Below are positions 30,343-59,055 of a stretch of 64,000 nt of DNA, one piece after another. A program made the position numbers and the translations under genes. Source of the stretch: Ponticaulis koreensis DSM 19734. GTDB lineage: Bacteria > Pseudomonadota > Alphaproteobacteria > Caulobacterales > Hyphomonadaceae. How positions within the stretch are numbered: position 1 is the first letter of the stretch; every line of letters begins with the position of its first letter. The stretch lies in the NCBI RefSeq assembly GCF_000420665.1, contig NZ_ATVJ01000001.1, positions 558,001 through 622,000 of the forward strand, read 5' to 3'. The notes below the pieces were generated by a model. The model was not told the origin of the DNA. It made no database searches and saw nothing but the letters and a program-made list of their open reading frames with translations.

Positions 30343-30497
30343 TTTCGCCAAGATTCGGACCAGAAACGTTATGTCTGCTTCTGCACAGCAGACGTATCAG
30401 GTGCAGTTCGATGAATACCAGTGCGAAATGCCAATCCGATACATAAATAGATGATGTGTAGCCCACAGTAATGTCATACAGCCGGATAGGGACAGAA

Positions 30498-33815: not shown

Positions 33816-34558
33816 ACTCCCCTAAATGCAGAAACAAAGCACCGCCCGTTTATCGTGCAGCGGCGTTTGAAAACGCGTCAGAGCTTACGTTGCGGCATGC
33901 TTTAGTATTTTTTCTGCAATTAGTGAGTTGATCGCGAAACTGTACGCGTTTAATAGCCTGCACTAAAGATGTAGCGAGCCTATCATGAAATCGCCCGGCG
34001 GGGCCATTTGGCGAGGCTTGCATTGGGGGAGTGCAGCAAGGCGCGTTCGAATAAATCGAACAGCGACAAACTCTTCCACGACAGAACTGAGCGCGGTGCC
34101 TGCCTGTGTAGTATCCGCCTCAAAACAAACGACGCGGTAGTCCCTTGTATTGCCGTCTCGTAGGAGAGTCGGCTTCCGGCGCTCCGAGGTCAGTCTCTTT
34201 TTCCCCTGTGCAAGGGTTGAGAGTCTGTCTTTTCTTTCCCAGAAGACCTGAAGGCGGTCGGTTTCCGACCGCCTCTTTTTCTGGCAAAATTGCGCATAGT
34301 GCGACCTGCATAGGTGCGACACAATCCTGCATAGCTCCCCCGAAAAATCTGTGTTCCAAATGAGAACGACAGTGTTCATGGGCATTTTTTAAGCTTTTTT
34401 ATAGCGAAATCCGATAAAAGTATGAGGTTTGCGAGCTTTCAATCACTTACATGCTGTGATCATATGCCTTGCTTGAGTCTCGGTACGGAATGTATCGGGC
34501 TCGTTATAAAAGACGAACCCGAACCAACTGGGACAAGAAAGAAAGACGGACGAAAGAC
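33816..34558. other. 743-base region without a supported protein gene
   Basis: No frame here has a ribosome site, membrane or domain pattern I can defend. The only clear element is a plus-strand terminator-like hairpin at 34252-34281. The preceding 200 bases contain several C/T-rich loops and could be a small RNA ending at this hairpin. A small inverted repeat (GTTCGA-ataaA-TCGAAC type, near 34046) is also present. Confidence 0.6.
34252..34281 (+). terminator. Rho-independent terminator, possible end of a small RNA
   Basis: AGGCGGTCGG / CCGACCGCCT with a two- to three-base loop, followed by CTTTTT on the plus strand. No protein gene ends within 430 bases upstream, so an untranslated transcript is the simplest explanation. 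Confidence 0.75.
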
Positions 34559-35206
34559 ATGACGACGAAATTTCCATTGCGTACGAAACGGAAAATGGAG
34601 ACGCGCCTGAAACTCGTCAGGTCTGCCCGTCACCTGTTTCTGAACAAAGGCTACGACAATACGACTCTGGAAGAAGTTGCGGAAGCCGCTGGCCTGCACG
34701 TTCAGACACTTTACCGTCACTTCGGTACGAAACAGGATCTCGCAAAAGCAGGCGATGAATACTGGCTTCGCCTTTTCGAAGAAGCGATCAGCAAGCGCGA
34801 CGCGTCTCAAAGCACATTTGCGTTCTGGCGCAACTGGATGTCCGAAACCGTTGATACGCTTCTGGAAGACGCCGAGGCATTTCGTTCCCACCTTCGCATG
34901 AGCTATTCAACGCCAACCATTATGGGCGCGACACTCGCGATCCGTGGCGCGTATGAAGATCTTCTGACCAAACATCTGGCGAAAGATTTCGGGATGCCGT
35001 TTGAAGGCGTGACAACACCGCGTCTGGTTGCGGGCATGCTCATGTCGGGCAACCACTATGTCCGAATGAACTTCAAAGACCATGATACAGACCTGAAAGC
35101 TGAAACACTGCAGGTCATCGATACTGTCACTGAAATGTTCTCCGATCTGGTGAAGGCACCCGCGAAAGCTCCGAAGAAAGTCAGCGCTGAATCTACACCG
35201 GCCTGA
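34559..35206 (+). CDS. TetR family transcriptional regulator
   Basis: 215 residues from MTTKFPLRTKRKMETRLKL (frame open from 34469). The helix-turn-helix is clear: ARHLFLNKGYDNTTLEEVAEAAG then LHVQTLYRHFGTKQDL (residues about 25-60). The C-terminal ligand-binding half has no known family. It lies 85 bases before the serine hydrolase gene on the same strand, and a palindrome resembling those before both PQQ genes is in that gap. It is the obvious candidate regulator of the accessory block that follows. Confidence 0.92.
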   Translation: MTTKFPLRTKRKMETRLKLVRSARHLFLNKGYDNTTLEEVAEAAGLHVQTLYRHFGTKQDLAKAGDEYWLRLFEEAISKRDASQSTFAFWRNWMSETVDTLLEDAEAFRSHLRMSYSTPTIMGATLAIRGAYEDLLTKHLAKDFGMPFEGVTTPRLVAGMLMSGNHYVRMNFKDHDTDLKAETLQVIDTVTEMFSDLVKAPAKAPKKVSAESTPA

Positions 35207-35245
35207 GCGCGTTTAAAATCACTGGCACACCTCCCGCGATTATGC

Positions 35246-35257
35246 ATAGTTCACTCT
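35246..35257. promoter_or_regulatory. Operator-like palindrome (near-match of ATAGT-N2-ACTAT)
   Basis: ATAGT-TC-ACTCT, nine of ten arm positions matching the palindrome found before both PQQ dehydrogenase genes. It lies 35 bases before the TTG start of the serine hydrolase and 40 bases after the TetR stop. Confidence 0.45.
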
Positions 35258-35291
35258 AATAAAGAGAGAACATAATCCGTGGGAGGATACC

Positions 35292-36635
35292 TTGAACACA
35301 ACCGAGACGAAGGGCGTACTGCGCCCAAAGCTGATCGCTGGAGCATGCTTTGCGGCGCTGCTTGCGCTTGGCGCATGTAATCCGACAAGTTCGGAATCCG
35401 CGCCAGCCGCTGTTGAACACACCGAAACCCATGAAAGCCGCTTCTCTGAAGAAGGCCTTCAAAACCTGGACGACGCGATGCGTCAGGCGGTTGAATCCGG
35501 CGAAGTCATCGGCCTGTCTTATGTTCTGGTATCCGGCGAAGAAGAAGTCGCACGTAATTATTTCGGTCTCGCCTCAACTCAAAGCAACGCGCCGATTCAG
35601 GAAGATACGATCTACCGCATCTACTCCATGTCCAAGCCAATAACCGGCGTTGCCATGATGATGCTGTGGGAACAGGGCCTGTGGGACCTCGACGATCCGG
35701 TCACTGACTACATTCCGGAATTTGAAAATCTGCGCGTTCTGGACGGCATGAATGAAGACGGCACACCGCGTCTTGTAGATGCGGACCGCCCGCCAACCAT
35801 GCGCGAAGTCATGAGCCATCAGGCTGGATTTGCTTACGGTCTGGGCGGCACGGACATGGCAAATGAAGCCTTCCGCGAGCGCCGCATCCTGCGAGAGCCG
35901 GATCTGGATTCCTTCATTGATGCAGTCGCTGACGTTCCCCTGCTCTTTCAGCCGGGCGAAAATTGGTATTACAGCGCAGCCGTCGATGTGCAGGGCTATA
36001 TCGTCGAAAAGCTATCAGGCCAGCGCTTTGGTGAATTCCTCGACGAAAACATTTTCACACCGCTGGGCATGGACGATACCGGCTTCTTCGTTCCGGAAGC
36101 CGATTATGACCGCCTGTCTGATGTTTTCACCTTCAGTCAGGAATATGATCGACTGGTAACTGTCCCGACGCTCGAAACGCGTTTCCGTGAAGATACGGTA
36201 CCTATGGAATCCGGTGGCGGCGGCCTCGTCGCGACACTCGATGACTATAAGAATTTCTGTCAGATGATGCTCAATGGCGGCGAACTGAACGGCCACCGCA
36301 TTATCCGCGAAGATACTGTCGAGCTGATGCGCACAAACGTACTCGGTCCGGACATGGAGCTCTGGTCCAACGGCAATGCGGGGCGCGCAACAGGCGCTGA
36401 AGGCCATGGCTTCGGTCTTGATTTCGGCATCGTTATGGACCCGTCCGCCACAGGTACAGGACAAGGCCCTGGAACATATTACTGGGGCGGTGCTGCCGGA
36501 ACATGGTTCTGGATCGACCCTGCCAGTGACCTCTATTTCATCGGCATGATCCAGCTGTTCGCAGGCGACCCTGAATCGCAGTTTGACGCGCGCGGTGCGA
36601 GCCGTGAAGCCGTCTATAATGCTCTGGTCGAGTAA
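35292..36635 (+). CDS. Serine hydrolase, class C beta-lactamase / family VIII esterase-like lipoprotein
   Basis: 447 residues, TTG start seven bases after GGGAGGAT. A lipoprotein signal with lipobox LGAC puts Cys29 at the membrane surface. The beta-lactamase-like (Pfam) fold has nucleophile S112 and base K115 in YSMSK, YYSAAVDVQGY for the conserved tyrosine, and the third motif YWGGAAGTWFW with WGGAAG in place of KTG, as in carboxylesterases such as EstB. So it is more likely an esterase or lactonase than a true beta-lactamase. Position downstream of TetR suggests that the substrate belongs to the system in this region. Confidence 0.85.
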   Translation: MNTTETKGVLRPKLIAGACFAALLALGACNPTSSESAPAAVEHTETHESRFSEEGLQNLDDAMRQAVESGEVIGLSYVLVSGEEEVARNYFGLASTQSNAPIQEDTIYRIYSMSKPITGVAMMMLWEQGLWDLDDPVTDYIPEFENLRVLDGMNEDGTPRLVDADRPPTMREVMSHQAGFAYGLGGTDMANEAFRERRILREPDLDSFIDAVADVPLLFQPGENWYYSAAVDVQGYIVEKLSGQRFGEFLDENIFTPLGMDDTGFFVPEADYDRLSDVFTFSQEYDRLVTVPTLETRFREDTVPMESGGGGLVATLDDYKNFCQMMLNGGELNGHRIIREDTVELMRTNVLGPDMELWSNGNAGRATGAEGHGFGLDFGIVMDPSATGTGQGPGTYYWGGAAGTWFWIDPASDLYFIGMIQLFAGDPESQFDARGASREAVYNALVE

Positions 36636-36672
36636 TCAGCCAGCTGGCAAATTTACCTAACTTGACATTCGT

Positions 36673-36684
36673 GTAGTTAAGTAT
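36673..36684. promoter_or_regulatory. Degenerate operator-like palindrome
   Basis: GTAGT-TA-AGTAT, matching ATAGT-N2-ACTAT at eight of ten positions. It lies about 105 bases before the lipoprotein gene that heads the paralog array. The spacing is plausible but the match could be chance; the stretch GTGTAGTTAAG also occurs at 27579-27589. Confidence 0.3.
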
Positions 36685-36787
36685 CACAAATTCAATGGCA
36701 GGCTGGCAAAGTGCGCAAAAGCGCCGCCAGCTGCCAACTTACTTGAGGAGTCAGAAAGGCGAAAATGCCTTTCGCGGGAGGATACAC

Positions 36788-37654
36788 ATGAAGGCTTTGT
36801 TTTCAGCCGCTGCAGCGATGGCGCTGCTGGCCGGCTGCGCGACTGCGCAATCAACCGGTACAGCGACAACAACCGCGGCAGCACCAGCTGTTGCTGAAGA
36901 AAGCGCTCGTCCAGACCTGAACGGCGTCTGGCGCGTCAACAATCGCGCTTACTACGACCTGGAAGCACACCATGCACGCCATGCTATGCAATTGCGTGAA
37001 GGCCCATACGGCCCTCTGCCTGATAGCCGCGTTGTCGCACTGGGCGCCATTGGCGCGGTTCCAGCGGGCGAAAGTGTCGTAAGCACTGGCGACATTCCAT
37101 ATACAGCGGACGCACTCGAGCGGCGCGATGCGAATTTTGAAAACTGGATTGATCGCGACCCGAATATCAAATGCTACCAGCCGGGCGTTCCGCGCGCGAA
37201 CTATATGCCATTCCCGTTCCAGATAATCATGAATGAGGAACAGGGCCAGATGCTGATTGCTTACGAATATGCTGGCGCAGTTCGTAACGTCTTCCTCGGC
37301 GAAGATCCGGGCGAAGCGCCAGTCGATAGCTGGATGGGTCAGAACTACGGTTACTGGGACGGCGATGATTTTGTAATCGAAGTCAAATACCAGAACGGTC
37401 AGACATGGCTCGACCGCGCAGGCAACTTCCTGCCATACGGCGCCGAAGTCACCGAGCGTTATTCCCGCATCGACGACAACCACATCCGCTACACTGCGAC
37501 AATCGTCGAGCCGGAAACCTACACAGAGCCGTGGGAAATCTCCATGGTACTCTACCGTCAGATCGAAGAAGACGCTCAGATTCTTGAATTCAACTGCGTT
37601 GAATTTGTTGAAGAACTTCTTCACGGCCACCTGCGCCGGGAGCCGCTTGACTAA
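36788..37654 (+). CDS. Secreted lipoprotein distantly related to the tandem paralogs that follow
   Basis: 288 residues from the ATG after GGGAGGATACAC. Lipobox LAGC near residue 18 gives a membrane-anchored, periplasmic or outer-membrane protein. After a Thr/Ala linker comes PDLNGVWRVNNRAYYDL. The rest follows the same plan as the next four proteins: one Cys (NIKCYQPGVPR), YWDGDDFVIEVKY (like their HWEGDTLVVETTNF), VTERYSRIDDNHIRYTATIVEP ... PWEISMVLYR and a late Cys (ILEFNCVEF). I therefore place it in the same uncharacterised family. The stop touches the next start (TAATG). Confidence 0.75.
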   Translation: MKALFSAAAAMALLAGCATAQSTGTATTTAAAPAVAEESARPDLNGVWRVNNRAYYDLEAHHARHAMQLREGPYGPLPDSRVVALGAIGAVPAGESVVSTGDIPYTADALERRDANFENWIDRDPNIKCYQPGVPRANYMPFPFQIIMNEEQGQMLIAYEYAGAVRNVFLGEDPGEAPVDSWMGQNYGYWDGDDFVIEVKYQNGQTWLDRAGNFLPYGAEVTERYSRIDDNHIRYTATIVEPETYTEPWEISMVLYRQIEEDAQILEFNCVEFVEELLHGHLRREPLD

Positions 37655-38715
37655 TGAAAGCGCTCAAACTTCTTACAGCCTCGGCGGTAGCGGGTCTTCT
37701 CGCTGCCCTGCCGGGTGCGATGGCTCAAGATGGCCCAGCCCCGTGGGACCCGGACTATGAGCCTCCGCGTATGGAAGACGGCACTCCAAGCTTTGCCGGT
37801 GTGTGGTCAAAGGCATCCCTTACCGTTCTGACACGCGGACGCCAGTTCTCCGATCTCGTGATCCCGCCTGCCATGGCGCAAGCGATCGAGTCCGGAAACG
37901 CTGCCGCAACAGAACGCGCCAATGCAGCACGCGATCCTGATGAAATACGTCAGGCACCCGAAGCGGGCGGCGCTGGCGTGGGCGGCTATAATCGTTTCTG
38001 GATGGACCCGGGCAATGCACTTGGTGTGATTGACGGTGAATACCGCTCATCCTGGATTGTTGATCCGGCAGATGGCCAGATCCCTTATACAGACGCGGCC
38101 CGCGAAGAAGCTGAAAACGCCATTTCAAACATGCGTAACAGCTTCTCTGATCCGGAAGTCCGCTCTGCAGGTGAACGCTGCACAGTCGGCTTTGGCTCTA
38201 CAGGCGCGCCGCCTATGCTGAACGTGCTTTACAACAACCACATTCAGTTCTTCCAACAGGACGACCTGATCGTCATTCTCGTGGAAATGAACCACAACGC
38301 CCGCATGATCCGCATGAATGCGGAACACCGCGGTCCGGAAATGCGGGAATGGCTTGGCGACTCCATTGGCCACTGGGAAGGCGATACGCTCGTCGTGGAG
38401 ACAACCAATTTCCACCCGGATAACTCTATCCGCACGGCTATTCGTCACGAGCTCTATTTCGAGCCGGATACAGTCGTGGAAGAACGGTTCACACGTGTGT
38501 CTGACGATGTGATTCACTATGAATTCACCGTCACAGACCCTGATCTGTTCACACAGCCTTGGCGCGGCGAGATGCCGATCTGGGCGGCTGAAGGTCCGAT
38601 CTATGAATATGCCTGCCATGAGGGCAATTACTCTTTGCCGGGCATTCTGGCTGGCGCACGACGCGAAGAACGTCTGGCAGCGGAAGCTGCTGCAAACGGA
38701 GGTGGCGGGGAATAG
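37654..38715 (+). CDS. Tandem secreted protein, paralog 1 of 4
   Basis: 353 residues; Sec signal peptide ending GAMAQ, mature part starting DGPAPWDPDYEPPRMEDG. Common core of the family: TPSFAGVWSKAS, VGGYNRFW, GVIDGEYRSSWIVDPADGQIPY, ERCTVGFGSTGAPPMLN (Cys), NHNARMIRM, GHWEGDTLVVETTNFHP, VVEERFTRVSDDVIHYEFTV and YEYACHEGNYSLPGI (Cys, His). Large uncharacterised families of this type occur in soil and marine bacteria, often near DUF6152 genes. No function is known. The start codon shares a base with the upstream stop, so it is coupled to the lipoprotein gene. Confidence 0.78.
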   Translation: MKALKLLTASAVAGLLAALPGAMAQDGPAPWDPDYEPPRMEDGTPSFAGVWSKASLTVLTRGRQFSDLVIPPAMAQAIESGNAAATERANAARDPDEIRQAPEAGGAGVGGYNRFWMDPGNALGVIDGEYRSSWIVDPADGQIPYTDAAREEAENAISNMRNSFSDPEVRSAGERCTVGFGSTGAPPMLNVLYNNHIQFFQQDDLIVILVEMNHNARMIRMNAEHRGPEMREWLGDSIGHWEGDTLVVETTNFHPDNSIRTAIRHELYFEPDTVVEERFTRVSDDVIHYEFTVTDPDLFTQPWRGEMPIWAAEGPIYEYACHEGNYSLPGILAGARREERLAAEAAANGGGGE

Positions 38716-38808
38716 ACCTGCCGCTTTCAGAGATGGCTAAACCGGTGCGCGTTTCATCAACGCGCGCCGTGCATCTCAGACTATGATAATCAATTTAGGG
38801 AGCGCGAC

Positions 38809-39873
38809 ATGACATCACCGTTAAAAAACCTGGTTTCTAAGGGCGCCATTTCCATGCTTGTGAGCGCGATGGCGCTGGCTGCTTCCGCACAGGACGCGCC
38901 GCCTGCATGGGACCCGAACTATGAACCGCCTCGCATGGAAGACGGCACGCCAAGCTTTGCCGGTATCTGGTCGAAAGCATCCCTCACCGTGCTCGAGCGT
39001 AGCCCACAATTTACCGATCTTGTTATTCCGCCGGCAATTGCTCAACGGATTGAACAGGGTCGTGCTGCGGCGACCGAAGCAGCTAACGCACCACGTGACC
39101 CGAACGAGCTGGAAGCCCCGGAAGCTGGTCAGAATGTTGGCGGCTATAATGCGTTCTGGACAGACCCCGGCACTGCGCTCGGCGTGATTGACGGCGAGTA
39201 TCGCTCGTCCTGGATTGTCGACCCGGCTGACGGACAAATTCCGTACACTGAAGCGGGCCGCGAAGAGGCTTTTTCTGCGCGTCAGGAAGCACGTGAAAAC
39301 TTCGACGATCCGGAAATCCGCATGGCTGGCGAGCGTTGCTCCGTCGGCTTCGGTTCCACGGGTACGCCGCCAATGCTGAACGTGCTCTATAATAACCACG
39401 TCCAGTTCTTTCAGGATGGCGACACAATCCGCATTCTGGCGGAAATGAACCACAATGCCCGCATCATCCGGATGAACACAGAGCACCGCGATCCTGAAAT
39501 GCGCACATGGCTTGGCGATTCCATCGGGCATTGGGAAGGCGACACGCTTGTCGTGGAAACGACCAATTTCCATCCGCAGAACTCGGTCCGTTCGGCCATT
39601 CGCCACTATCTGTATCTACAGCCGGATTCTCTTGTCGAGGAACGCTTCACCCGCGTGTCTGACGACGTGATCCACTATGAGTTCACGGTGACTGACCCGG
39701 ACCTGTTCACCCAACCATGGTCTGCTGAAATGCCGCTCTGGGCGGCTGAAGGCCCAATCTACGAATACGCCTGCCATGAAGGGAACTACTCTCTTCCAGG
39801 CATACTTGCTGGCGCGCGTCGTCAGGAAGCCCTCGCCCGCGAAGCTGCGAGCGAGAACAGCGGCGGCGAATAA
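38809..39873 (+). CDS. Tandem secreted protein, paralog 2 of 4
   Basis: 354 residues; signal peptide ends AAASAQDA and the mature chain begins with PPAWDPNYEPPRMEDG. The same core motifs as paralog 1, with GHWEGDTLVVETTNFHPQN and YEYACHEGNYSLPGI unchanged. Residues 70-115 are the most variable part. Ribosome site TTAGGGAGCG upstream. A hairpin (CGGCGAATAATTCGCCG) spans its stop codon and might slow or tune read-through into the next gene. Confidence 0.78.
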   Translation: MTSPLKNLVSKGAISMLVSAMALAASAQDAPPAWDPNYEPPRMEDGTPSFAGIWSKASLTVLERSPQFTDLVIPPAIAQRIEQGRAAATEAANAPRDPNELEAPEAGQNVGGYNAFWTDPGTALGVIDGEYRSSWIVDPADGQIPYTEAGREEAFSARQEARENFDDPEIRMAGERCSVGFGSTGTPPMLNVLYNNHVQFFQDGDTIRILAEMNHNARIIRMNTEHRDPEMRTWLGDSIGHWEGDTLVVETTNFHPQNSVRSAIRHYLYLQPDSLVEERFTRVSDDVIHYEFTVTDPDLFTQPWSAEMPLWAAEGPIYEYACHEGNYSLPGILAGARRQEALAREAASENSGGE

Positions 39874-39949
39874 TTCGCCGTACGCTATGAACGGAGCTGA
39901 CCCGACAAAAGAGGTTAGCCCGTTCGACACGAGTTAGGGAGGATATGTC

Positions 39950-41005
39950 GTGCAATCGGCATTAAAGAAACTAGCCGCAGCCACTGCGCTTACCGCAATG
40001 ACGGTAACTGGCGCCGTGGCCGCCTCGGCACAGGACGCGCCAGAAGCGTGGGATCCGAATTACGAACCGCCTCGCATGGCAGACGGCACACCAAGCTTTG
40101 CTGGTGTCTGGTCCAAGGCCTCACTCACCGTTCTGGAGCGCACGCCGCAATTTGCCGACCTGATGATTGCGCCAGCCGTGGCGCGCGCCATCGAAAACGG
40201 TCAGGCTATGGCGATGGAAGCCAGTCAGGGCCCGACTGATCCCGATGCACCTGCGCCGGAAGCAGGTCAGGATGTTGGCGGATACAATACGTTCTGGATG
40301 GATATGGGCGACCGGATCGGTGTGGTGAACGGAGAATACCGCTCCTCATGGATCGTTGATCCTGCAGATGGCAAAGTTCCGTATTCAGAAGAAGGCCGCG
40401 CGGCAATGGCAGAGGCCATGAGCCGACGCAGCTTTGATGACCCTGAAGTTCGCTCAGCCGGTGAACGTTGCACTGTGGGCTTTGGCTCTACGGGCGGCGC
40501 GCCAATGCTGAATGTGCTCTACAACAACCACGTTCAGTTCTATCAGACCGAAGATGTCGTTTCCATTCTGGTCGAGATGAACCATAATGCGCGTATGGTC
40601 CGGCTGAATGCCGAACACCGCGCGCCTGAATTGCGCCAATGGCTCGGCGATTCCGTCGGACACTGGGAAGGCGACACACTCGTCGTCGAAACAACCAATT
40701 TCCATCCTGGAAATCTGATCCGCGGCGCGATCCGTCATCGCCTCTATGTTGAGGAAGACACTGTTGTCGAAGAACGTTTCACACGCGTAGCGGATGACGT
40801 CATCTTCTATGAATTCACCGTCACCGATCCGGACCTTTACACCCAGCCATGGCGCGCAGAAATGCCGCTCTGGGCGGCTGAAGGCCCGATCTATGAATAT
40901 GCCTGCCATGAGGGAAACTATTCTCTGCCGGGCATTCTCGCCGGCGCGCGACGTGAAGAACGTCTGGCCGCCGAAGCCGCGGAAAGCGGTGCGACTACGA
41001 ACTAA
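39950..41005 (+). CDS. Tandem secreted protein, paralog 3 of 4
   Basis: 351 residues; GTG start six bases after GGGAGGA (the ATG nearby is out of frame). Signal peptide MQSALKKLAAATALTAMTV ... AASAQ. Core motifs as in the other copies, with the IGVVNGEYRSSWIVDPADG variant and a slightly shorter loop after the first Cys. The C-terminal tail EAAESGATTN is diverged, like all the tails. It is 76 bases after paralog 2 and 88 before paralog 4, so transcription is likely continuous. Confidence 0.78.
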   Translation: MQSALKKLAAATALTAMTVTGAVAASAQDAPEAWDPNYEPPRMADGTPSFAGVWSKASLTVLERTPQFADLMIAPAVARAIENGQAMAMEASQGPTDPDAPAPEAGQDVGGYNTFWMDMGDRIGVVNGEYRSSWIVDPADGKVPYSEEGRAAMAEAMSRRSFDDPEVRSAGERCTVGFGSTGGAPMLNVLYNNHVQFYQTEDVVSILVEMNHNARMVRLNAEHRAPELRQWLGDSVGHWEGDTLVVETTNFHPGNLIRGAIRHRLYVEEDTVVEERFTRVADDVIFYEFTVTDPDLYTQPWRAEMPLWAAEGPIYEYACHEGNYSLPGILAGARREERLAAEAAESGATTN

Positions 41006-41093
41006 ACCAAAATCTGCCCGTCGGCCCGTCGCATCAGTCTGATGAGCCGCCTGCAACAAGAATAAAAACGTCATAGCCCGGGGAAAAACAGCA

Positions 41094-42149
41094 ATGACAT
41101 CACGCCTGACCAAATGCCTTACGGCGACCATCAGTATCATCGCACTCGGTATGTCCGGTGCTTCGGCACAAGACGGCCCAGAACCATGGGACCCAAATTA
41201 TGAACCGCCGCGCATGGAAGACGGAACACCAAGCTTTGCTGGCGTCTGGTCCAAAGCGTCAATCACATCAATCGAGCGCAGCCCGATGTTTGATACTCTG
41301 GTCATTCCGCCGGAAGTCGCAGAAAACGCAGAAGAAATGCGTCGCCGCATGCTTGAAGCGCGGTCACAGCCAACCAACCCCGATGAAGGCGCACCTCCGG
41401 CTGGCGCAGGTGTTGGCGGTTATAACTCATTCTGGATCGATGCTGGCGACCGCCTCGCAGTCGTCAACGGCGAATACCGCTCTTCATGGATTGTTGATCC
41501 AGCTGACGGCCGCATCCCGTATTCCGAAGAAGGTCGCGCGGAGATGGAAGAAGCCGTCGCACTCGCCTGGCACAATTATGACAACCCGGAGAACCGCTCC
41601 GCAGCTGAACGCTGCACAGTAGGCTATGGCTCAACCGGCGCACCTCCAATGTTGAACGTGCTCTACAACAACCACGTCCAGTTCTTCCAGACCGAAGATC
41701 TGATCGTTCTGCTCGTCGAAATGAACCACAACGCTCGCATGATCCGGATGAATGCTGAACACCGCGGGCCGGAAATGGCGCAGTGGCTCGGGGATTCCGT
41801 CGGCCACTGGGAAGGTGACACGCTGGTTGTGGAAACAACAAACTTCCATCCGGATATGAACCAGCGCTCGTCTCAGGCGCAACGTTTCTATCTGCAGGAA
41901 GATACAGTGGTTGTTGAACGATTTACGCGCGTCGCCGATGATACGATTTTCTACGAGTACACGGTCACCGACCCGGATCTCTTCACTCAGCCATGGAGTG
42001 CTGAAATGCCTTTATGGGCTGCAGAGGGGCCAATTTACGAGTATGCCTGCCATGAAGGCAACTACTCGCTGCCGGGCATTCTCGCTGGCGCGCGTCGTGA
42101 GGAACGTCTCGCGGCTGAAGCGGCTGCCGAAGCAGATGGTGGTCAATAA
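41094..42149 (+). CDS. Tandem secreted protein, paralog 4 of 4
   Basis: 351 residues, signal peptide MTSRLTKCLTATISIIALGM then SGASAQDG. It is the most diverged copy: the variable segment is EVAENAEEMRRRMLEAR, the first Cys motif is RCTVGYGSTGAPPMLN, and the loop after TTNFHP differs (DMNQRSSQAQRF). The shared HWEGDTLVVETTNFHP and the C-terminal YEYACHEGNYSLPGI remain unchanged. The gap of about 100 bases before the DUF6152 gene shows no terminator, so both may be on one transcript. Confidence 0.78.
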   Translation: MTSRLTKCLTATISIIALGMSGASAQDGPEPWDPNYEPPRMEDGTPSFAGVWSKASITSIERSPMFDTLVIPPEVAENAEEMRRRMLEARSQPTNPDEGAPPAGAGVGGYNSFWIDAGDRLAVVNGEYRSSWIVDPADGRIPYSEEGRAEMEEAVALAWHNYDNPENRSAAERCTVGYGSTGAPPMLNVLYNNHVQFFQTEDLIVLLVEMNHNARMIRMNAEHRGPEMAQWLGDSVGHWEGDTLVVETTNFHPDMNQRSSQAQRFYLQEDTVVVERFTRVADDTIFYEYTVTDPDLFTQPWSAEMPLWAAEGPIYEYACHEGNYSLPGILAGARREERLAAEAAAEADGGQ

Positions 42150-42251
42150 CAAAACGCAGTACAACTGACTCATTCAGTTGATATTCATACTGGTCATGAT
42201 ATTAAACTAACATAAAGTGGCCCGCACACTTATAATCTGGAGGCAACGTAC

Positions 42252-42698
42252 ATGATTAAAATGGGGAAAAAGACACTCGCAGCATTCGGTACAGCGACAG
42301 CTGTAGCCCTGATTGCTGGCGCATCCTACGCCCACCACGCTTTCTCTGCCGAGTTTGACGCTGACGCGCCGGTTCTGCTGGAAGGCACAGTAACCCGCGT
42401 TGAGTGGGTGAACCCGCACACATGGATTCACATCGATGTGGAGCAGGAAGATGGCACAACCCAGCCTTGGATGGTTGAAGGTGGTACGCCAAACACTCTG
42501 CTGCGCGCTGGTCTGAACCGCCGCACGCTGTCACCTGGTACAGACCTCGTTGTTCGTGGTTACCAGTCTATCGACCGCCTTTGCGCGCCAGCTTGTAAAG
42601 CAAACGGCCGTGACGTGACCTTCCCGAACGGCGAACAGATGTTCGTAGGTTCTTCAGGCACGGGCGCTCCGGATGATGGCTCTGACCCAGGTCAATAA
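42252..42698 (+). CDS. DUF6152 family protein, exported
   Basis: 148 residues; signal peptide with MIKMGKKTLAAFGTATAVA, cleaved near ASYAHH. The mature part opens with HHAFSAEFDADAPVLLEGTV and continues TRVEWVNPHTWIHIDVEQEDG, the DUF6152 hallmark (a small beta-barrel OB-like fold, unknown function). One pair of Cys in CAPACKANG may form a disulfide. DUF6152 genes are commonly found together with the ~350-residue paralog family seen upstream. It ends at the plus-strand terminator at 42727. Confidence 0.85.
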   Translation: MIKMGKKTLAAFGTATAVALIAGASYAHHAFSAEFDADAPVLLEGTVTRVEWVNPHTWIHIDVEQEDGTTQPWMVEGGTPNTLLRAGLNRRTLSPGTDLVVRGYQSIDRLCAPACKANGRDVTFPNGEQMFVGSSGTGAPDDGSDPGQ

Positions 42699-42726
42699 GA
42701 CCAGCTCTGATCTCATCTGAAACAAT

Positions 42727-42762
42727 GCCGCCTCTGGTTCACACCTGAGGCGGTTTTCTTTT
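42727..42762 (+). terminator. Rho-independent terminator of the paralog array
   Basis: GCCGCCTC / GAGGCGG with a 12-base loop followed by TTTTCTTTT, about 30 bases after the DUF6152 stop. It ends the plus-strand run that begins at 36788. Confidence 0.85.
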
Positions 42763-42787
42763 GCCTGATCTAAAACCGTCGTAAACA

Positions 42788-42820
42788 AAGAAGCCCGGAC
42801 CAATCGGCCCGGGCTTTCCG
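42788..42820 (-). terminator. Terminator of the minus-strand PQQ operon
   Basis: AGCCCGG / CCGGGCT with a ten-base loop, followed on the minus strand by TCTTTG, 23 bases beyond the stop of the last gene. The plus strand version has a weaker tail (TTTCC). Confidence 0.75.
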
Positions 42821-42842
42821 ATTTATGACTAAGTCTAATCGC

Positions 42843-43766
42843 CTACCAGAAGGCAATCCAGCGACCAGAGATCGCCACAGAAAGCCATAGGAACATGCTC
42901 ATCATGCTAACAAATCGCATGCTCAATGGCTGAGTTTGCACTGCGCCCATACCAATCCAGGAGATCACGCCGGCGATATAAGACACCAGCATCATACCAA
43001 GGATGGACGGGTGGAAGAATGCAGCAATCCCCATCGCGTTGAGGTCAAGCTCATGGAAATACTGATAGTCGATCCGCGCCAGCAGGAATGCCGCGGAAAT
43101 CAAAGCACCAACGACAACCAAAAATCCCGGTACTGAAATATACATGGGCAGAGAGCGTAATTTCTCGACCTTCTCATTCTTCAGATACATCGGCGCGGTG
43201 ATAAAGCCCACGATGAGCAGCATCAGAATAAGATAGGCCTGACGAGCCGCGAAACGCCAGTCGGTCAGCTCAATCCATGCATACCAGAAGACCAGCATCG
43301 AGATCACGAGACCAACAATCGCGACCGGCGTGAACTTACCATTGTTCCGGATGACGCTGTCGCGCGTCGTGAAGGTGAAGACGAGCGCCGAGAACAAGCC
43401 TGCCATTTTCAGCCAGAATGGCGGACTGTTATAGATCCGCATCACTTGCCCTAACCCAAGCATAATGCCTGAGATGATCAGAGCGATTGCTGCCCCGACA
43501 AGGAACGGGTGCATTTTCCGGTTCAGTTCGACAGGTGAACGCGCCGTTACGCCCGGGCCAACAACTCGAAGGTCTGCCAGCAGAATAGCGCCGCCCAACA
43601 GAGACAATGCAACAAGGTGCACGCATCCCGCCATCGGCGTAAAATACCATGCATCTTTTACAAATCGCGCCGCAGGCCCCTGGTCGGTTGCCCGGAACAA
43701 AGGTTCAATATTATCAGAGAAGAAATCGGCATTGCCTGCGAGTTGGTAGATCAGATCAAACAACAT
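42843..43766 (-). CDS. Integral membrane protein, eight or so helices, related to the next upstream gene product
   Basis: 307 residues from the ATG that overlaps the upstream stop (TGATG). About eight hydrophobic segments. The segment VHLVALSLLGGAILLADLRVVG ... RKMHPFLVGAAIA ... PPFWLKM matches that of the adjacent 186-residue protein (THIMTLMLFVG ... DLRLLG), so the two are paralogs, here with extra C-terminal helices. The conserved His before GGAILLADLR suggests a cofactor such as heme b, by inference. It is the last gene of the operon headed by the PQQ protein at 48041. I do not know a demonstrated function. Confidence 0.78.
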   Translation of the reverse strand: MLFDLIYQLAGNADFFSDNIEPLFRATDQGPAARFVKDAWYFTPMAGCVHLVALSLLGGAILLADLRVVGPGVTARSPVELNRKMHPFLVGAAIALIISGIMLGLGQVMRIYNSPPFWLKMAGLFSALVFTFTTRDSVIRNNGKFTPVAIVGLVISMLVFWYAWIELTDWRFAARQAYLILMLLIVGFITAPMYLKNEKVEKLRSLPMYISVPGFLVVVGALISAAFLLARIDYQYFHELDLNAMGIAAFFHPSILGMMLVSYIAGVISWIGMGAVQTQPLSMRFVSMMSMFLWLSVAISGRWIAFW

Positions 43767-44326
43767 CAGTGGCCTCCCAGCTGCGGACAATCAGAGAAGA
43801 AGTAGAGGAAATCGCCTTCATTGAACGTCGCGCAATGGAACCAGTCACCATACGCGATAAGACGTCCGAGACAGACGACGATCACCCAGCTCGAAAGTGA
43901 CAGCCCGGCGATCACGCGCGCACTCATAGGCGGCTTTTCAGCATTGTCCCACTTCGCCTGACCGTGCTGAACCCGGAAGTGAAACACCATGATGTTGATC
44001 ATCGCGAGCGCGATCACGATCAGTTTCAGCCGGAAATACATATTGTTGTAATAGGTAAGTGGCTTGGCGTAGAACAGAACAACGCCCGTGATCATCAACA
44101 CCGCAAAGCCGATCATCGTCAGCGGAAGAATGCGCTTTTCAATCGCCGACACCGGCGTGTTCTTGAACAGCACACCGAGCAATCTCAGATCGACCATGAT
44201 GATGGTCCCGACAAACAGCATTAGCGTCATGATGTGTGTCGCTTCAATCGCAGACCAGACCAGGAACGACTCCCGTAAGGCGACACTTAGCTGCTGACCA
44301 TCCAGCCACAGCATTAAATCTCTCAT
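43766..44326 (-). CDS. DUF6644-like integral membrane protein
   Basis: 186 residues with four hydrophobic segments (about 25-50, 70-95, 95-120, 135-160). The helix WSAIEATHIMTLMLFVGTI and the following DLRLLG loop are the core of DUF6644-type proteins, often seen near PQQ or DUF6152 genes. H31 may lie inside the membrane. Overlaps the preceding gene (ATGA type at its start), so it is translationally coupled. A quinone- or heme-linked role for the neighbouring dehydrogenase is a guess based on context. Confidence 0.75.
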   Translation of the reverse strand: MRDLMLWLDGQQLSVALRESFLVWSAIEATHIMTLMLFVGTIIMVDLRLLGVLFKNTPVSAIEKRILPLTMIGFAVLMITGVVLFYAKPLTYYNNMYFRLKLIVIALAMINIMVFHFRVQHGQAKWDNAEKPPMSARVIAGLSLSSWVIVVCLGRLIAYGDWFHCATFNEGDFLYFFSDCPQLGGH

Positions 44327-44883
44327 TCAGTACCCTCCCCGTTTATTTGATCCTCGTAGACTCCTCCATCACGAAACAGGGTGGCTTCGTCATAGAACCC
44401 GTAAGTCAGGAGTGTAATCTCGACATCATCCGCCCCGCGGTTTTCAAAAAAGATGCCGTGAATTCCGTCATATGGCGCGACATAACTCCCTCGCGCGCCT
44501 GTACCTGCTGAGATAGCAAAGCTGTCGGACACCTCTTCGCCGTCAATCATCGCATCGGTGTGGAAGTCGTATTCAACTTCAGCCGTTGCAGACCAATCGA
44601 ACAGAAGAGATTGCCCTTCTAGCAGGTGGTACTTGTATTCAAAATTCTCATAAGGCGCGATCGTCCAGACCTGACGGTCGGAGCGGATATCGGCCTCACC
44701 TGCCTCGTTATAATTCGTGGTTTCCATCTCTTCATTGGAAAGGGCCATCAGGCCTGATGCGCGGCCGAAACCTGTCGGGTCGACACCGAACTCTGCTGGC
44801 AGAACGGCCAGCACAAGCACGACTGCCGCGACAATGATGGAAAAGAGAAGCGGAAGCAGAGTTCCGCGCGTGGTCTCATTCAT
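44323..44883 (-). CDS. 'Transmembrane anchor' family protein
   Basis: 186 residues from the ATG after GGAGGTTTCTGAG (an upstream in-frame ATG at 44937 lies inside hupE). One N-terminal membrane helix (LLPLLFSIIVAAVVLVLAV, 10-28) is followed by LPAEFGVDPTGFGRASGL, the signature of the proteins annotated as transmembrane anchor, usually next to HupE-like genes. The rest (residues 60-186) is a periplasmic beta-rich domain. It may hold or assist a partner on the periplasmic side. It overlaps hupE by no bases, with one base between, as a coupled pair. Confidence 0.82.
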   Translation of the reverse strand: MNETTRGTLLPLLFSIIVAAVVLVLAVLPAEFGVDPTGFGRASGLMALSNEEMETTNYNEAGEADIRSDRQVWTIAPYENFEYKYHLLEGQSLLFDWSATAEVEYDFHTDAMIDGEEVSDSFAISAGTGARGSYVAPYDGIHGIFFENRGADDVEITLLTYGFYDEATLFRDGGVYEDQINGEGTE

Positions 44884-44884
44884 C

Positions 44885-45616
44885 TCAGAAACCTCCTGAC
44901 TGAATGAAAGCGAAGGAATGCTGGCCGAAAAGCACAAAACCCAAGGTCATGAGCAGAACGTTCGCGTACCAGGCCTGTTGTTCGAAACCGCGCGCCTGAC
45001 GCCAGATGTTCAAAAGACTGACAATGAAGATCAGCACCAGAACCTGGCCGAGTTCGACACCGATATTGAAGCTGATCATATTGGCGATCAGCCCCTCTTC
45101 TGAGACAGAGAGCGCCTGCAGCTTAGTCGCGAGGCCTGTGCCATGCGCGAGGCCGAATGCCGCCACCGCCCATTTCGGGTTTACCCGCAGCGCACCCCAG
45201 TTCCTGAAGCCGCCAATATTATCATACGCCTTGTAAACGACAGATAGGCCGATGATCGCATCGACCAGATACTCATTCGCGTGAAAGCCGCCCAGCACAC
45301 CGCCGAGCAGCGTCAGGCTGTGGCCAATCGTGAACAGGCTCACATAAACCAGGATATCTTTGAACTGGCGCAGAAAGAAAACGACGCCAAGCAGGAAGAG
45401 CACATGGTCAGTGCCCGTCACCATATGTTTGGCGCCGAGATACAGGAATGGGATTGGCGCGAATCCGGAAATCGACTCGATATAGCGCGCATTCTGCTGC
45501 GATACGTCATGTGCGAATGACGGAAGCGCAAACAGTAAGCAAATCGCGAGGCCTGTCAGCGCAAGACGCCAGACAGCCTGTCGATCATAGCCATAAGGGG
45601 ACGAAAGAGCGTTCAT
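44885..45616 (-). CDS. HupE/UreJ family metal permease-like protein
   Basis: 243 residues from MNALSSPYGYDR (the further upstream start would overlap the cytochrome gene). A signal-like first helix ends in SFAHDVSQ; six or seven membrane helices follow. The histidine-rich family motifs are GAKHMVTGTDHVLF (about 78), TIGHSLTLLGG and FGLAHGTG. HupE/UreJ proteins are nickel or cobalt permeases or membrane chaperones of metalloenzymes. Here no hydrogenase or urease genes occur; calcium or a lanthanide for the PQQ enzyme is a possible cargo, inferred only from the operon. Confidence 0.87.
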   Translation of the reverse strand: MNALSSPYGYDRQAVWRLALTGLAICLLFALPSFAHDVSQQNARYIESISGFAPIPFLYLGAKHMVTGTDHVLFLLGVVFFLRQFKDILVYVSLFTIGHSLTLLGGVLGGFHANEYLVDAIIGLSVVYKAYDNIGGFRNWGALRVNPKWAVAAFGLAHGTGLATKLQALSVSEEGLIANMISFNIGVELGQVLVLIFIVSLLNIWRQARGFEQQAWYANVLLMTLGFVLFGQHSFAFIQSGGF

Positions 45617-46080
45617 CGAATTCTCTGAATATCCATGGCGTAGCGCTGGTGGCAGGCAAGGCACACGCGATAGACCTGACCGCCTGCATCAAACAGCTCT
45701 TCTTCGTCGCGCGCTTCAGCAGCCGCGCGCACGCGCTCAGCTGCTACAACCAGCCCTTCAGAGATCGCGATCCATTCTTCATCGTCACCTGCAAACTCCT
45801 CAGACTGCAGACGACGCGTTTGCGCAATCAGATCATCTGTCGCCTGAATTACGACAGCCCACTCTTCATCGGTTTCCGGGAAAAGAGATTCTTCTCCCTC
45901 TTCGGTGAGAATATATCCGGCATTGTCCCAGATACCGTCGGCCGTTTCATCCATTTCCTCGGACATAAACGTGGCGACAGCCGACATGCGCGCTTCGATC
46001 TCGGCTTCTTCGTTGTTGCCGCAGGCAGAGAGCATCAAGGCCCCGCCGAGTGCGAAAATCGCAAGGTTAGATTTTTTCAT
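45613..46080 (-). CDS. Cytochrome c'-like lipoprotein
   Basis: 155 residues. Lipobox LSAC at residues 17-20 marks an anchored periplasmic protein. The heme-binding motif CLACH is at 140-144, near the C-terminus, as in four-helix cytochrome c' proteins; the chain before it is helical and acidic. It probably takes electrons from the neighbouring PQQ dehydrogenase and hands them to the respiratory chain, by analogy with other quinohemoprotein systems. Its stop overlaps the hupE start by four bases; its own start lies two bases from the PQQ gene stop. Confidence 0.87.
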   Translation of the reverse strand: MKKSNLAIFALGGALMLSACGNNEEAEIEARMSAVATFMSEEMDETADGIWDNAGYILTEEGEESLFPETDEEWAVVIQATDDLIAQTRRLQSEEFAGDDEEWIAISEGLVVAAERVRAAAEARDEEELFDAGGQVYRVCLACHQRYAMDIQRIR

Positions 46081-46082
46081 TT

Positions 46083-48041
46083 TTATTCTTCCTTCCCAGT
46101 CAACCTGAAAGCGAGGAGAGCATTCCCCGGCATCTGGCTGAAACCGCTATAGCCGGACTGTACATAAAGCATGTCACCGGCGAGGAACGGCCCGGCATTA
46201 TCAATCGCGCCGCCATGGGCGGAGATCCCGTTCACCGTTTCAAATTCTCGAACCGTGTCATATTCCCAAAGGCGCTCACCCGTTTCCGCATTGAATACGA
46301 ACAGGTTTCCATCCAGCGCGCCAATGACGACCAGTTCGTCGGTAGACGCAGGCGTCGCTGAATATCCGTAAGAGAAAGAACAGTCCGGCCAGGGCTCAGT
46401 CTGCTCGTTACGCTCCGCGTAAGTGATCTCACACCCGCGCTCAGCGCTCACCGACCAGAGCAAGTCTCCTGTATCGAGATCGAGCACATAGAGCCCCGGT
46501 TGTGGGTTATATTCGGCCGGGTCCATCGGAAATTCCGGATCGGCCGCAGGCGCATAAACGCGGCCATTGGAGACGGTTACCCCCCAGTGTACACCGCCGA
46601 GAGCAGACCCTGCAGAGATTTTCCGCGTCCAGACGAGTTCGCCCGTAGCCGCATCAACGACATGCACATCGCCGGATTTCTGACCCGCCACGACGACCTC
46701 GCGGCCATCGGAGAGCTGCGTGAACGTGACGCCGCCGCCAAAGTCATAGTCCGGCCCTTCAGGTGTCGGGCAGTTTGGACCATCAGGACGGAACGCCGAG
46801 CAGGACATGTTCCACGTGTCGTGATCCCAGGCCTGATACACCCAGAGCATGTCTCCGGTTTCAAGGTCGAGTGCGATCAGCGCATCACTTGTTTCTGTCG
46901 CCGGCAGTGACGTGTTTTCGCCGGTACCAATGTAAACCCGGCCGTTCTCGAGATCGACGGCAGGCGTCGCCCAGACAGGCGCTCCGGAAGGACCCCATTG
47001 CTGGGTACCAACAGACGACACACCAGTCGGTTCCGCGTCCGGTGTCATATGTGTCGTCCAGAGGATCTCGCCGGTTTCCATGTCCAGTGCATGCACGCCG
47101 CCATGGCCTTTGCAGCATTCAAAACGCGGATCCATGGCCCGAGGCGCATCATTGTTCGACATAGGAACAATCAGGCGATCACCTGCTGGTACCACACCGC
47201 CTGTGCCCATGGATGTATTGAAAAGCGCAGCTTCAGTTGACCAGAGCGCTTCACCGGTTTCGCCGCGATAGGCGTGGACGGTTCCAATAGCATCCATCAC
47301 GAAAATAGCTGGTGCGCCGCCGACTTCGCCAAGCGACACAGCAGAACGCATCGGGCGCTCCGTCTGATTATGCCATTTGATACAGCCGGACTGACGGTCA
47401 ATTGCAAAGAGGTGACCGGAGGTCGCAGCTGTGAAAATCGTGTCTTCGGTTACGACAGGATAGGATCGCATGTCGGACGTACCCGGCATGCCGAATGCCC
47501 AGGCGAATTCAAGCCCATCAACATTCTCCGCCGTCAGGGAAGTCGATTGAGACCCGAAATATCGCTGGTTGTTCGTTGTTACGCCCCACGACCGGACGTG
47601 GACGGTATCAAAATCAATATCAGTGTTTTCACACTGCGCAGCCTCTGAGACGACAGTGCCCGCTTCACCCGCAGGGGAAAGATAATCGATCAGGTCAGCA
47701 ATTTGCGTACGGTTCAGGCCCGTCGCCATATCGCGCATTTTGCCCTGCGTGACAGCATAGCGAAGGAACGGTCCGCTCATATTCTGAAGATCAGCGAGAC
47801 TCGGCATGCGTAGGTCTCCGCCTGCATCATGACAGTCCGCACATCGTTCCTGATACACGAGTGCGCCCGGATGCGGCGTCTCTACGCGCTGTTCAACAGC
47901 CACCGTTTCAGCAACAGAATTATCCACATTATCGGAAGACGCGGTCTCGGTCTGGACGCATCCTGCCAATACCATCAGCGAAATGCCGCCTAGCAATATT
48001 CCCGCAATTGGGGTCGTTCCGCGCTTTGCTGGCATTTGCAC
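46083..48041 (-). CDS. PQQ-dependent quinohemoprotein dehydrogenase, polyvinyl-alcohol-dehydrogenase-like lipoprotein
   Basis: 652 residues. Lipobox LAGC with Cys28. The heme c site CADCH at 67-71 precedes an eight-bladed PQQ beta-propeller with repeats such as VHALDMETGEILW and DVHVVDAATGELVW. Adjacent cysteines ECCKGHGG near 309 form the disulfide ring typical of PQQ alcohol dehydrogenases. A heme c N-terminal to the PQQ domain is the layout of polyvinyl-alcohol dehydrogenase, EC 1.1.2.6. The substrate is unknown: a secondary or polymeric alcohol is plausible. It heads the six-gene operon; the operator-like palindrome is at 48116. PQQ synthesis genes are not in the window. Confidence 0.86.
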   Translation of the reverse strand: MQMPAKRGTTPIAGILLGGISLMVLAGCVQTETASSDNVDNSVAETVAVEQRVETPHPGALVYQERCADCHDAGGDLRMPSLADLQNMSGPFLRYAVTQGKMRDMATGLNRTQIADLIDYLSPAGEAGTVVSEAAQCENTDIDFDTVHVRSWGVTTNNQRYFGSQSTSLTAENVDGLEFAWAFGMPGTSDMRSYPVVTEDTIFTAATSGHLFAIDRQSGCIKWHNQTERPMRSAVSLGEVGGAPAIFVMDAIGTVHAYRGETGEALWSTEAALFNTSMGTGGVVPAGDRLIVPMSNNDAPRAMDPRFECCKGHGGVHALDMETGEILWTTHMTPDAEPTGVSSVGTQQWGPSGAPVWATPAVDLENGRVYIGTGENTSLPATETSDALIALDLETGDMLWVYQAWDHDTWNMSCSAFRPDGPNCPTPEGPDYDFGGGVTFTQLSDGREVVVAGQKSGDVHVVDAATGELVWTRKISAGSALGGVHWGVTVSNGRVYAPAADPEFPMDPAEYNPQPGLYVLDLDTGDLLWSVSAERGCEITYAERNEQTEPWPDCSFSYGYSATPASTDELVVIGALDGNLFVFNAETGERLWEYDTVREFETVNGISAHGGAIDNAGPFLAGDMLYVQSGYSGFSQMPGNALLAFRLTGKEE

Positions 48042-52622: not shown

Positions 52623-52966
52623 TGGGATACTCAGAAAGTTATGTTTGTTTTTTCTGATCGTACCCGAATAGAATTGAGACCTTGTTGCTTAAAGGATAAA
52701 CAATTAGCGCGCTGCGGTTAACCAGTCCGACGCCGCTCCCGACCGCTCAAGCGAGCCCATTGCCATCATTCATCGAAGTATGTTGTCCCAGCACAGGGCC
52801 GCACTTTTGCGTTGAATTCTGCGAACAAAAACAGTCAAGCGTCACAAGCTGCTTACCTTAACGTGTACAAAAACCCATGGACAAACCGGCTCAAAACAGT
52901 CAAGTATAGTGAACTATCTTGATGGATGCTCATAAAATCGGGCGGCATCACCCGGGAGGAAAATTA
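52623..52966. other. Divergent intergenic region, porin operon to second PQQ gene
   Basis: 344 bases between divergent starts, with no supported gene. It contains the palindrome at 52906-52917, 50 bases before the PQQ start, and a CAGTCAAG motif repeated at 52834 and 52897. Promoters for both directions should lie here, but I cannot assign -35/-10 boxes with confidence. Confidence 0.7.
52906..52917. promoter_or_regulatory. Operator-like palindrome ATAGT-GA-ACTAT
   Basis: Perfect five-base arms around GA, flanked by CAAG on the left and CTTG on the right, so the symmetry extends further with a one-base offset. It lies 50 bases before the start of the second PQQ gene, in a likely promoter position. 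Confidence 0.55.
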
Positions 52967-57046: not shown

Positions 57047-57337
57047 CTATTTCAGCAGGTTTTCGATCGACTTTGCGAGCTTCATATCACGCTCGGTCAG
57101 CCCATCCGCATCATGCGTAGAGAGCAGGATTTCAACGCGATTATAGACATTGGACCATTCAGGATGGTGGTCCTGCTCGTGCGCGAAAAAGGCAACGCGC
57201 GTCATGAAGCCGAAAGCCTCTACAAAGTCATCAAACTCGACTTTGGCCGATACAGACTTGCCGTCCTCTGACAGTGCCCAGCCGGGCTTCAGAGCGCACA
57301 GTGTCTTGATTTCGGTCTCGGTCAGCGTTTGCATCAT
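57047..57337 (-). CDS. phhB: 4a-hydroxytetrahydrobiopterin dehydratase (pterin carbinolamine dehydratase)
   Basis: 96 residues. Recycles the pterin cofactor of phenylalanine hydroxylase. Family motif [35 protein letters not shown], with the catalytic HHPEW histidines. It is the last gene of the phenylalanine/tyrosine operon and overlaps the preceding gene by four bases (ATGA). Convergent with the Lrp gene. Confidence 0.95.
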
Positions 57338-58344: not shown

Positions 58345-58347
58345 ATT

Positions 58348-59001: not shown

Positions 59002-59055
59002 TCAAGAGGCCTCAGGTTTCTTCTGCAGACATATTAAACCGCCACATAACAAGCG

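Follow-up and report, generated by a model that had tools for sequence, protein, structure and literature searches.

Calycins, such as the fatty acid-binding proteins (FABPs) and the lipocalins, are up-and-down antiparallel β-barrels of 8-10 strands marked by a GxW motif at the first strand; FABPs carry a helical portal lid between strands A and B, and calycin-fold enzymes also exist. CopC-CopD systems (PcoC/PcoD, YcnJ) serve copper uptake with a periplasmic barrel and a membrane partner, and CopC-CopD fusions exist in which the periplasmic domain is followed by the membrane part. With regard to quinoproteins, PMC12124388 presents PqqT as a known periplasmic protein that binds pyrroloquinoline quinone (PQQ) and describes PQQ import by non-producers as documented and common. 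Here, a window of 64,000 nucleotides from Ponticaulis koreensis DSM 19734 (the whole stretch of DNA that was analyzed, to which all positions refer) was found to carry, at 36788-42698 on the forward strand, an array consisting of a lipoprotein gene, four genes for secreted paralogs, and a DUF6152 gene, in that order. The family encoded by the array is predicted to have a calycin-like (FABP/lipocalin type) fold. We tentatively favor, at a little less than an even chance, the explanation that these calycins are ligand-binding, exchangeable subunits of a DUF6152-DUF6644 module, which here would serve periplasmic quinoprotein oxidation.

The unit opens with a short calycin-family lipoprotein of 288 residues with an LLAGC lipobox (36788..37654), which is followed by long paralogs 1 (353 residues; 37654..38715), 2 (354 residues; 38809..39873), 3 (351 residues, GTG start; 39950..41005), and 4 (351 residues; 41094..42149) and by the DUF6152 gene (42252..42698), all on the forward strand. 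Four consecutive paralogs of these lengths, with a DUF6152 gene after them, had been described in an earlier sequence-only reading of the window, and both points were borne out; the last gene matched PF19649 with 109 bits against a cut-off of 27. The identities of paralogs 2, 3, and 4 to paralog 1 were 76, 72, and 69%. The motifs HWEGDTLVVETTNFHP, YEYACHEGN, and PGILAGARR were unchanged across the four long paralogs, as that reading had stated, but the RCTVGFG that it gave for the other Cys site is RCSVGFG in paralog 2. The lipoprotein, which had been taken to follow the same plan, was homologous to the paralogs (24% identity, E 2e-12; 375.7 bits on a family profile that included it as a row) and kept both Cys, but it did not keep the motifs of the long paralogs (it has YWDGDDFVIE). 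A lack of shared fold between the lipoprotein and the paralogs had been named as the outcome that would count against a common role; at the sequence level, their homology is clear. Both Cys were invariant in all 116 aligned members, and a wider alignment, of the kind suggested earlier, found them in 127/127 and 126/127 sequences, the single miss being a gene fragment. The conserved Cys pair is compatible with a disulphide.

The stop codon of the lipoprotein gene overlaps the start of long paralog 1 (TAATG), and the intergenic gaps from paralog 1 on to DUF6152 are 76-102 bp. With earliest starts used, operon-like spacing (≤150 bp) was seen in 14/14 short-long gaps, 25/28 long-long gaps, and 15/16 long-DUF6152 gaps. 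No terminator or promoter signal was found to split the array, as the 10 and 5 sites in 34300-43000 compared with 8.6 and 4.3 in shuffles. This spacing suggests that the array genes are co-transcribed.

The AlphaFold2 model of mature paralog 2 (116 aligned sequences; pLDDT 89.8, pTM 0.86) is a predicted antiparallel β-barrel of the calycin type. In the Foldseek search, the first 41 rows were of FABP type, the best being 5bvq (E 8e-4), with FABPs being heavily represented in PDB, and the best VIA-align match was 4azq (Z 8.3, root mean square deviation 3.0, 116 aligned residues). The GxW motif was present at strand A, with G26 in 127/127 and W28 in 122/127 sequences. In the long model, strand A (26-29) is separated from strand B (171-177) by an insertion of ~140 residues, and the differences among the paralogs are densest in this insertion, at the position of the FABP lid. 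The sequence-only reading had proposed a constant core with a variable segment at residues 70-115; that segment was indeed enriched in variable columns (30/46 versus 104/282 in the rest of the mature protein, Fisher p 6e-4), but the variable part is wider and spans 56-170, with 38/61 variable columns at 56-116 and 31/54 at 117-170, compared with 47/146 in the Cys-to-Cys barrel. Since the four long copies differ mostly in the lid-position insertion, they may differ in ligand.

The same barrel could also be read as a lyase, hydratase, or isomerase of calycin fold that acts on the substrate or product of the neighboring oxidoreductases. The near-universal polar residues E186 (119/127), R192 (126/127), E252 (126/127), and R253 (116/127) are more than a pure binding barrel needs, and many members stand apart from DUF6152 and DUF6644, as would suit an enzyme. 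However, none of the 116 members matched an enzyme family in Pfam or NCBIfam, and tandem near-copies with a variable lid suit binding better, so that we consider an enzymatic role unlikely. In fact, 0/116 aligned members matched any Pfam (24,736 models) or NCBIfam (18,950) model at E≤0.01, and no credible sequence relative of the family was found among PDB chains. Shiga toxin B chains gave only weak PDB matches (E 0.5 to 1.7), which were judged to be chance, and identity as a Rieske alpha-subunit (Ring_hydroxyl_A) was rejected, the match being below the cut-off (E 0.14) and limited to a single paralog. The novelty of the family was judged against Pfam, NCBIfam, PDB, and an open-access collection of papers, in which no paper on DUF6152, DUF6644, the family motif, calycins in connection with PQQ, or the HupE/UreJ family was found; broader searches of it returned no title on the family.

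The partners of the family are indicated by gene fusions. In one genome (G234), DUF6152 and calycin lie in a single open reading frame (ORF) of 382 residues, and in two others, G306 (570 residues) and G308 (604 residues), DUF6152, calycin, and DUF6644 are joined in one ORF. G306 and G308 belong to the same genus-level group as G234 and are 42-58% identical to its fusion by segment, and the triple fusion of G306 is followed downstream on the same strand by a second DUF6644, HupE, and the ~190-residue protein described below. Domain fusion in the order periplasmic-periplasmic-membrane is good evidence that DUF6152, calycin, and DUF6644 act together. As a separate observation, a triple-fusion gene is separated from its DUF6644 partner by an insertion element with two transposase-like ORFs (by eye; L136:7462-8633).

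A scan of 84,980 species genomes gave at least 593 candidate stretches, 476 of them encoding relatives, and the best gave 79 loci, the stretches of which extend at most 10 kb to either side and less on some short contigs. Neighbor clustering was performed on these 79 loci plus the window and profile counts on the 79 loci, which were chosen for calycins. The commonest neighbor clusters were a cytochrome-c'-like lipoprotein (27 loci), DUF6152 (24 loci), and DUF6644 (18 loci, 31 genes), followed by a ~190-residue protein (16 loci), HupE_UreJ_2 (16 loci), and the PQQ type (13 loci). All of these occur in the window, where the reverse strand after the array encodes two DUF6644 membrane proteins (second copy at 42843..43790, PF20349 58.1 bits; first copy at 43766..44326, 41.9 bits; cut-off 27), the protein of ~190-200 residues that appears by eye to cross the membrane once and has no Pfam match (44323..44937), a HupE_UreJ_2 membrane protein (44885..45664; PF13795, 171.9 bits), and a lipoprotein with a C-terminal CxxCH that is cytochrome c' like (45613..46080; PF01322 22.1 bits, below the cut-off of 26.5). 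Among the distinct DUF6152 ORFs in the 79 loci, 28/29 lie no more than 1.5 kb from a calycin, and in each of these 28 cases the two share a strand, which agrees with the earlier statement that the family and DUF6152 recur together in bacterial genomes.

Furthermore, the association was seen in a phylum sample of 299 genomes, 8 of which carried the family (E≤1e-10). DUF6152 was present in 8/8 calycin genomes versus 27/291 others (p 1.6e-8) and DUF6644 in 8/8 versus 18/291 (p 1e-9). Overall, 35/299 genomes had DUF6152 and 26/299 had DUF6644 (19 above the curated cut-off); all 26 DUF6644 genomes also carried DUF6152 (p 4e-30), and 31/36 DUF6644 places were within 5 kb of DUF6152. DUF6152 regions were also taken from 20 of the 27 DUF6152 genomes that lacked a calycin match; among these, DUF6644 adjoined in 18/20, and a remote calycin was present in 2/20, one being the G234 fusion. 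The frequency of DUF6644 in these regions suggests that DUF6152-DUF6644 is a general pair to which the calycins are an addition. A tight DUF6152-DUF6644 unit without calycin, with HHGW after the signal peptide, was also noted at ~5200-6700 in 17/17 regions (L102-L118).

Gene order in other lineages showed the same elements. In a SAR86 locus (L059), one strand carries a TonB receptor (by eye), a nitrilase-like hydrolase, one short and two long calycins, DUF6152, a cytochrome, two DUF6644 genes, and an oxidoreductase fusion, and the gene order of L049 is the same. Three Acidobacteriota regions, which were picked for tandem copies and do not give a rate, have three (L139), three (L143), and four (L144, the first of 269 residues) calycins and then DUF6152. 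On sphingomonad plasmids, calycin-DUF6152 pairs are accompanied by DUF6644 or TonB receptors, and the annotation lists no PQQ gene; at the annotated plasmid loci of TomTYG65, N. humi, and Croceibacterium, the catabolic neighbors are varied and no single substrate emerges.

The window encodes two PQQ-type proteins, namely a β-propeller protein with an N-terminal CxxCH cytochrome domain and a vicinal Cys-Cys (46083..48041, reverse strand) and a second protein with CxxCH and Cys-Cys (52919..54868, forward strand). Both exceeded the PF13360/PF01011 cut-offs, with the vicinal Cys in ECCKGHG and YCCTGHG; the 46083-48041 gene, the only one compared with NCBIfam, was far below the TIGR03075 cut-off (99.2 versus 480.05 bits). 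In the calycin genomes of the phylum sample, PQQ-type genes lay within 5 kb of 8/21 calycin loci, in 5/8 genomes, whereas 0.59 loci were expected from random placement (5,000 runs, maximum 5 loci); the same proximity test for DUF6152 gave 8/21 loci in 7/8 genomes versus 0.42 expected. The PQQ profile was built partly from calycin loci and its recall may favor them, but the weakest full-length matches were still at ~E 1e-87. The copy numbers of calycin and PQQ-type genes were correlated (rho 0.77, n=20 calycin-bearing genomes; 0.69 without the two genomes whose counts are lower bounds), in a comparison for which thresholds and profiles differ between two genome sets. For the two largest genomes, a calycin:PQQ ratio of 1:1 was not used because no more than 100 PQQ candidates per genome were scored and the calycin counts are lower bounds.

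This link could instead mean that the calycins carry scavenged PQQ or assemble it into apo-quinoproteins. pqqC was not found in the genome of the window nor in 7/10 other genomes searched (the three positives serving as control), so that PQQ would have to be imported, as is common (PMC12124388), and the copy-number correlation would also fit such delivery. However, PQQ-type genes occur in only 15/79 calycin loci, PqqT is already described as a periplasmic PQQ binder (PMC12124388), and the main text of a chemical-proteomics paper on PQQ binders in other species (PMC13088180) contains neither "lipocalin" nor "calycin". We regard PQQ delivery as very unlikely. The sequence-only reading had suggested substrate-specific binding or transport-accessory proteins for the adjacent PQQ enzymes; the predicted fold of ligand-binding type and the proximity of PQQ-type genes agree with the binding part, but the fused partners are DUF6152 and DUF6644, and the quinoproteins are found at a minority of the loci.

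The N-terminus of DUF6152 raises the question of metals. His-His directly follows the predicted signal-peptidase site in 80/81 distinct DUF6152 ORFs, the residue at -1 being A in 72, S in 4, and G in 4; the single miss starts at a contig edge. Cleavage at this site would give a mature His-His N-terminus. H56 and H60 were invariant in 23/23 DUF6152 proteins of the window's type, and DUF6152 was modeled as an OB fold (pLDDT 78.8) that matched PriB and SSB with Z up to 8.8. The mature N-terminus may plausibly hold a metal site; a histidine brace of H28/H29 and H56/H60 is conceivable, residues 28-30 of the model having pLDDT <50. DUF6152 and DUF6644 might act like CopC and CopD on copper or another metal, with the calycins binding a metallophore or helping metal delivery to periplasmic redox enzymes. 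Besides these histidines, such a role would account for the HupE_UreJ_2 neighbor in 16 loci, in which several His and an Asp are conserved 16/16, for the fusion of a periplasmic domain and then a membrane part, which resembles CopC-CopD fusions, and for the TonB receptors beside some calycin loci (by eye; some annotated). However, no CopC or CopD Pfam match was present among the proteins scanned, many neighbors point to catabolism (esterase-like proteins, luciferase-type monooxygenases, CoA enzymes), and the three richest genomes have from 49 to at least 102 calycin matches versus 12-16 DUF6152, which is hard to reconcile with one metal. Metal handling is, in our view, as unlikely as the enzymatic role.

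Phylogenetic analysis of 18 short and 47 long proteins (65 in total, from 24 loci) separated the short and long forms with full support (100/100) and placed the window lipoprotein in the short clade, although midpoint rooting and one long branch leave the root unsure. A short form stood directly before a long form in 14 pairs, with gaps all ≤22 bp (earliest start). The idea that the short form is always a lipoprotein was dropped, as a lipobox-like pattern was present in 10/20 short ORFs (some truncated or with uncertain starts). All 19 Ponticaulis long proteins in the tree fell into one clade (100/100), and every window copy paired with its own orthologue in L007, a Ponticaulis metagenome-assembled genome that is the closest relative among the matches listed (97% identical). 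The ratios of nonsynonymous to synonymous substitution (dN/dS) versus L007 were 0.033 for the short form, 0.045, 0.013, 0.014, and 0.052 for the long forms, and 0.108 for DUF6152. The orthologue pairing and low dN/dS indicate that the copies are an expansion of the Ponticaulis lineage that was kept by purifying selection. Recent neutral duplication without any particular role would agree with the ease with which tandem copies arise and with the single Ponticaulis clade, but each copy has its own L007 orthologue, the dN/dS of the long copies is 0.013-0.052, and two or more calycin copies before DUF6152 are also found in SAR86 and Acidobacteriota, which makes neutrality barely credible.

Besides the five members in the window, no further family member was found in the 3.4 Mb genome, in which DUF6152 is present once. 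In 12 genomes chosen as locus-bearing, the numbers of matches were at least 102, 3, 15, 49, at least 94, 18, 26, 11, 10, 26, 8, and 6; the two largest are lower bounds, since 150/182 and 150/152 candidates were scored. The three richest genomes are those of L083 (Acidobacteria), L068 (Vicinamibacterales), and L067 (Sulfopaludibacter metagenome-assembled genome). Two further observations concern single calycins. In one Alphaproteobacterium (G257), a calycin gene at L093:10045-10341 is interrupted by two stops. In 11 marine gammaproteobacterial loci (L019, L020, L029-L031, L034, L035, L038-L040, L050), a lone long calycin occupies a fixed place beside the cell-wall and lipoate genes rlpA-dacA-ybeD-lipB-lipA (names by eye) and an Hsp70-like gene, and no DUF6152 or PQQ was present in the clusters shown for these loci.

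Taken together, the tentatively favored explanation of the array as exchangeable subunits can be set out as follows. The array products would be secreted periplasmic calycin-like barrels, most likely binding within the barrel a small organic ligand that is probably hydrophobic, with one short form first in the unit and one or more long forms after it. The calycins would dock on a core formed by DUF6152, a periplasmic OB-fold protein with mature His-His, and the DUF6644 membrane proteins. In the P. koreensis genome, the module would most likely serve PQQ-type quinohaemoproteins with the cytochrome c'-like lipoprotein, feeding them or being fed by them.

Several points weigh against this explanation. 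On the FABP side, TM was ~0.4-0.5, and a VIA-align Z near 8 is a common level according to the tool's note, so that the fold is called calycin-like and not proven; none of the 116 members had a sequence match to any calycin family (Pfam/NCBIfam; PDB chains), and the family is therefore not assigned to any known one. By profile, DUF6152 was present in 31/79 calycin loci and DUF6644 in 19/79, with PQQ-type genes in the 15/79 given above, and 45/79 loci had no DUF6152, DUF6644, or PQQ genes in the stretch examined, which means that the partners recur but are not obligatory neighbors. Homologues in unrelated contexts with a known function had been named earlier as a possible refutation; the 45 loci provide such contexts, but no homologue of known function was encountered. 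All of the fusions belong to a single genus-level group (G234 and 2/30 relatives searched), and the co-occurrence statistics ignore shared ancestry. With regard to PQQ, the 5 kb on either side of the calycins contained no PQQ gene in 3/8 of the genomes, and G325 has 3 calycin versus 29 PQQ-type matches.

In a bolder version, which we regard as possible yet rather doubtful, DUF6152, calycin, and DUF6644 would form an undescribed membrane-anchored periplasmic machine, with a CopC/CopD-like core and exchangeable lipocalin-like barrels that each present a different ligand to a quinoprotein or other oxidases. The Acidobacteriota barrels (~100 per genome) would then be a substrate repertoire, akin in spirit to SusCD arrays.

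Upstream of the array, on the forward strand, lie a TetR-type protein (34556..35206; PF00440, 55 bits), which is a possible regulator, and a serine hydrolase of β-lactamase fold that is esterase-like (35292..36635; PF00144, 228.9 bits); the cluster of the latter also directly precedes the short gene in L007, L008, and L009. On the other side, the apparent signal peptide of the HupE_UreJ_2 protein (44885-45664, reverse strand) is directly followed by a His that is invariant (16/16; position by eye), similar to the His-His of DUF6152. Farther away, two adjacent prolyl-4-hydroxylase-like genes (name by eye; 29503-30342 and 30471-31361, forward strand) are nearly identical in their last ~100 or more residues and differ in their first halves, as if by gene conversion. 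At 57334-62894, phenylalanine hydroxylase-, HPPD-, and FAH-like genes (by eye) for aromatic amino acid catabolism were observed together with an Lrp/AsnC-like regulator.

An unnamed secreted family with at least 102 matches in one genome is an annotation blind spot in Acidobacteriota, Sphingomonadales, and marine Gammaproteobacteria. The fusions join three functionless labels (the calycin family, DUF6152, and DUF6644) into a single testable complex that is often encoded close to periplasmic quinoproteins, and assigning its function could reach what is probably a large number of hypothetical proteins. Compared with known systems, the family differs from FABPs and lipocalins in having no detectable sequence homology to them, an insertion of ~140 residues, the conserved Cys pair, and a long C-terminal helix and in being bacterial and secreted, whereas the predicted antiparallel barrel, the GxW at strand A, and the extra A-B segment at the FABP lid position are shared. 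With CopC-CopD (PcoC/PcoD, YcnJ), the module shares a small periplasmic barrel and a multi-span membrane partner, also fused in that order, and would share a mature N-terminal His if cleavage occurs as predicted, but DUF6152 is modeled as an OB fold and does not match CopC, and DUF6644 does not match CopD. The enzymes of the window resemble PQQ-dependent alcohol dehydrogenases in their PQQ-type propellers, CxxCH, and vicinal Cys pair, and differ in that 46083-48041 is below the TIGR03075 cut-off and has an N-terminal cytochrome domain and that no pqqC was found in the genome. Finally, the calycins would share with PqqT, as PMC12124388 presents it, the character of a periplasmic accessory protein linked to quinoproteins.

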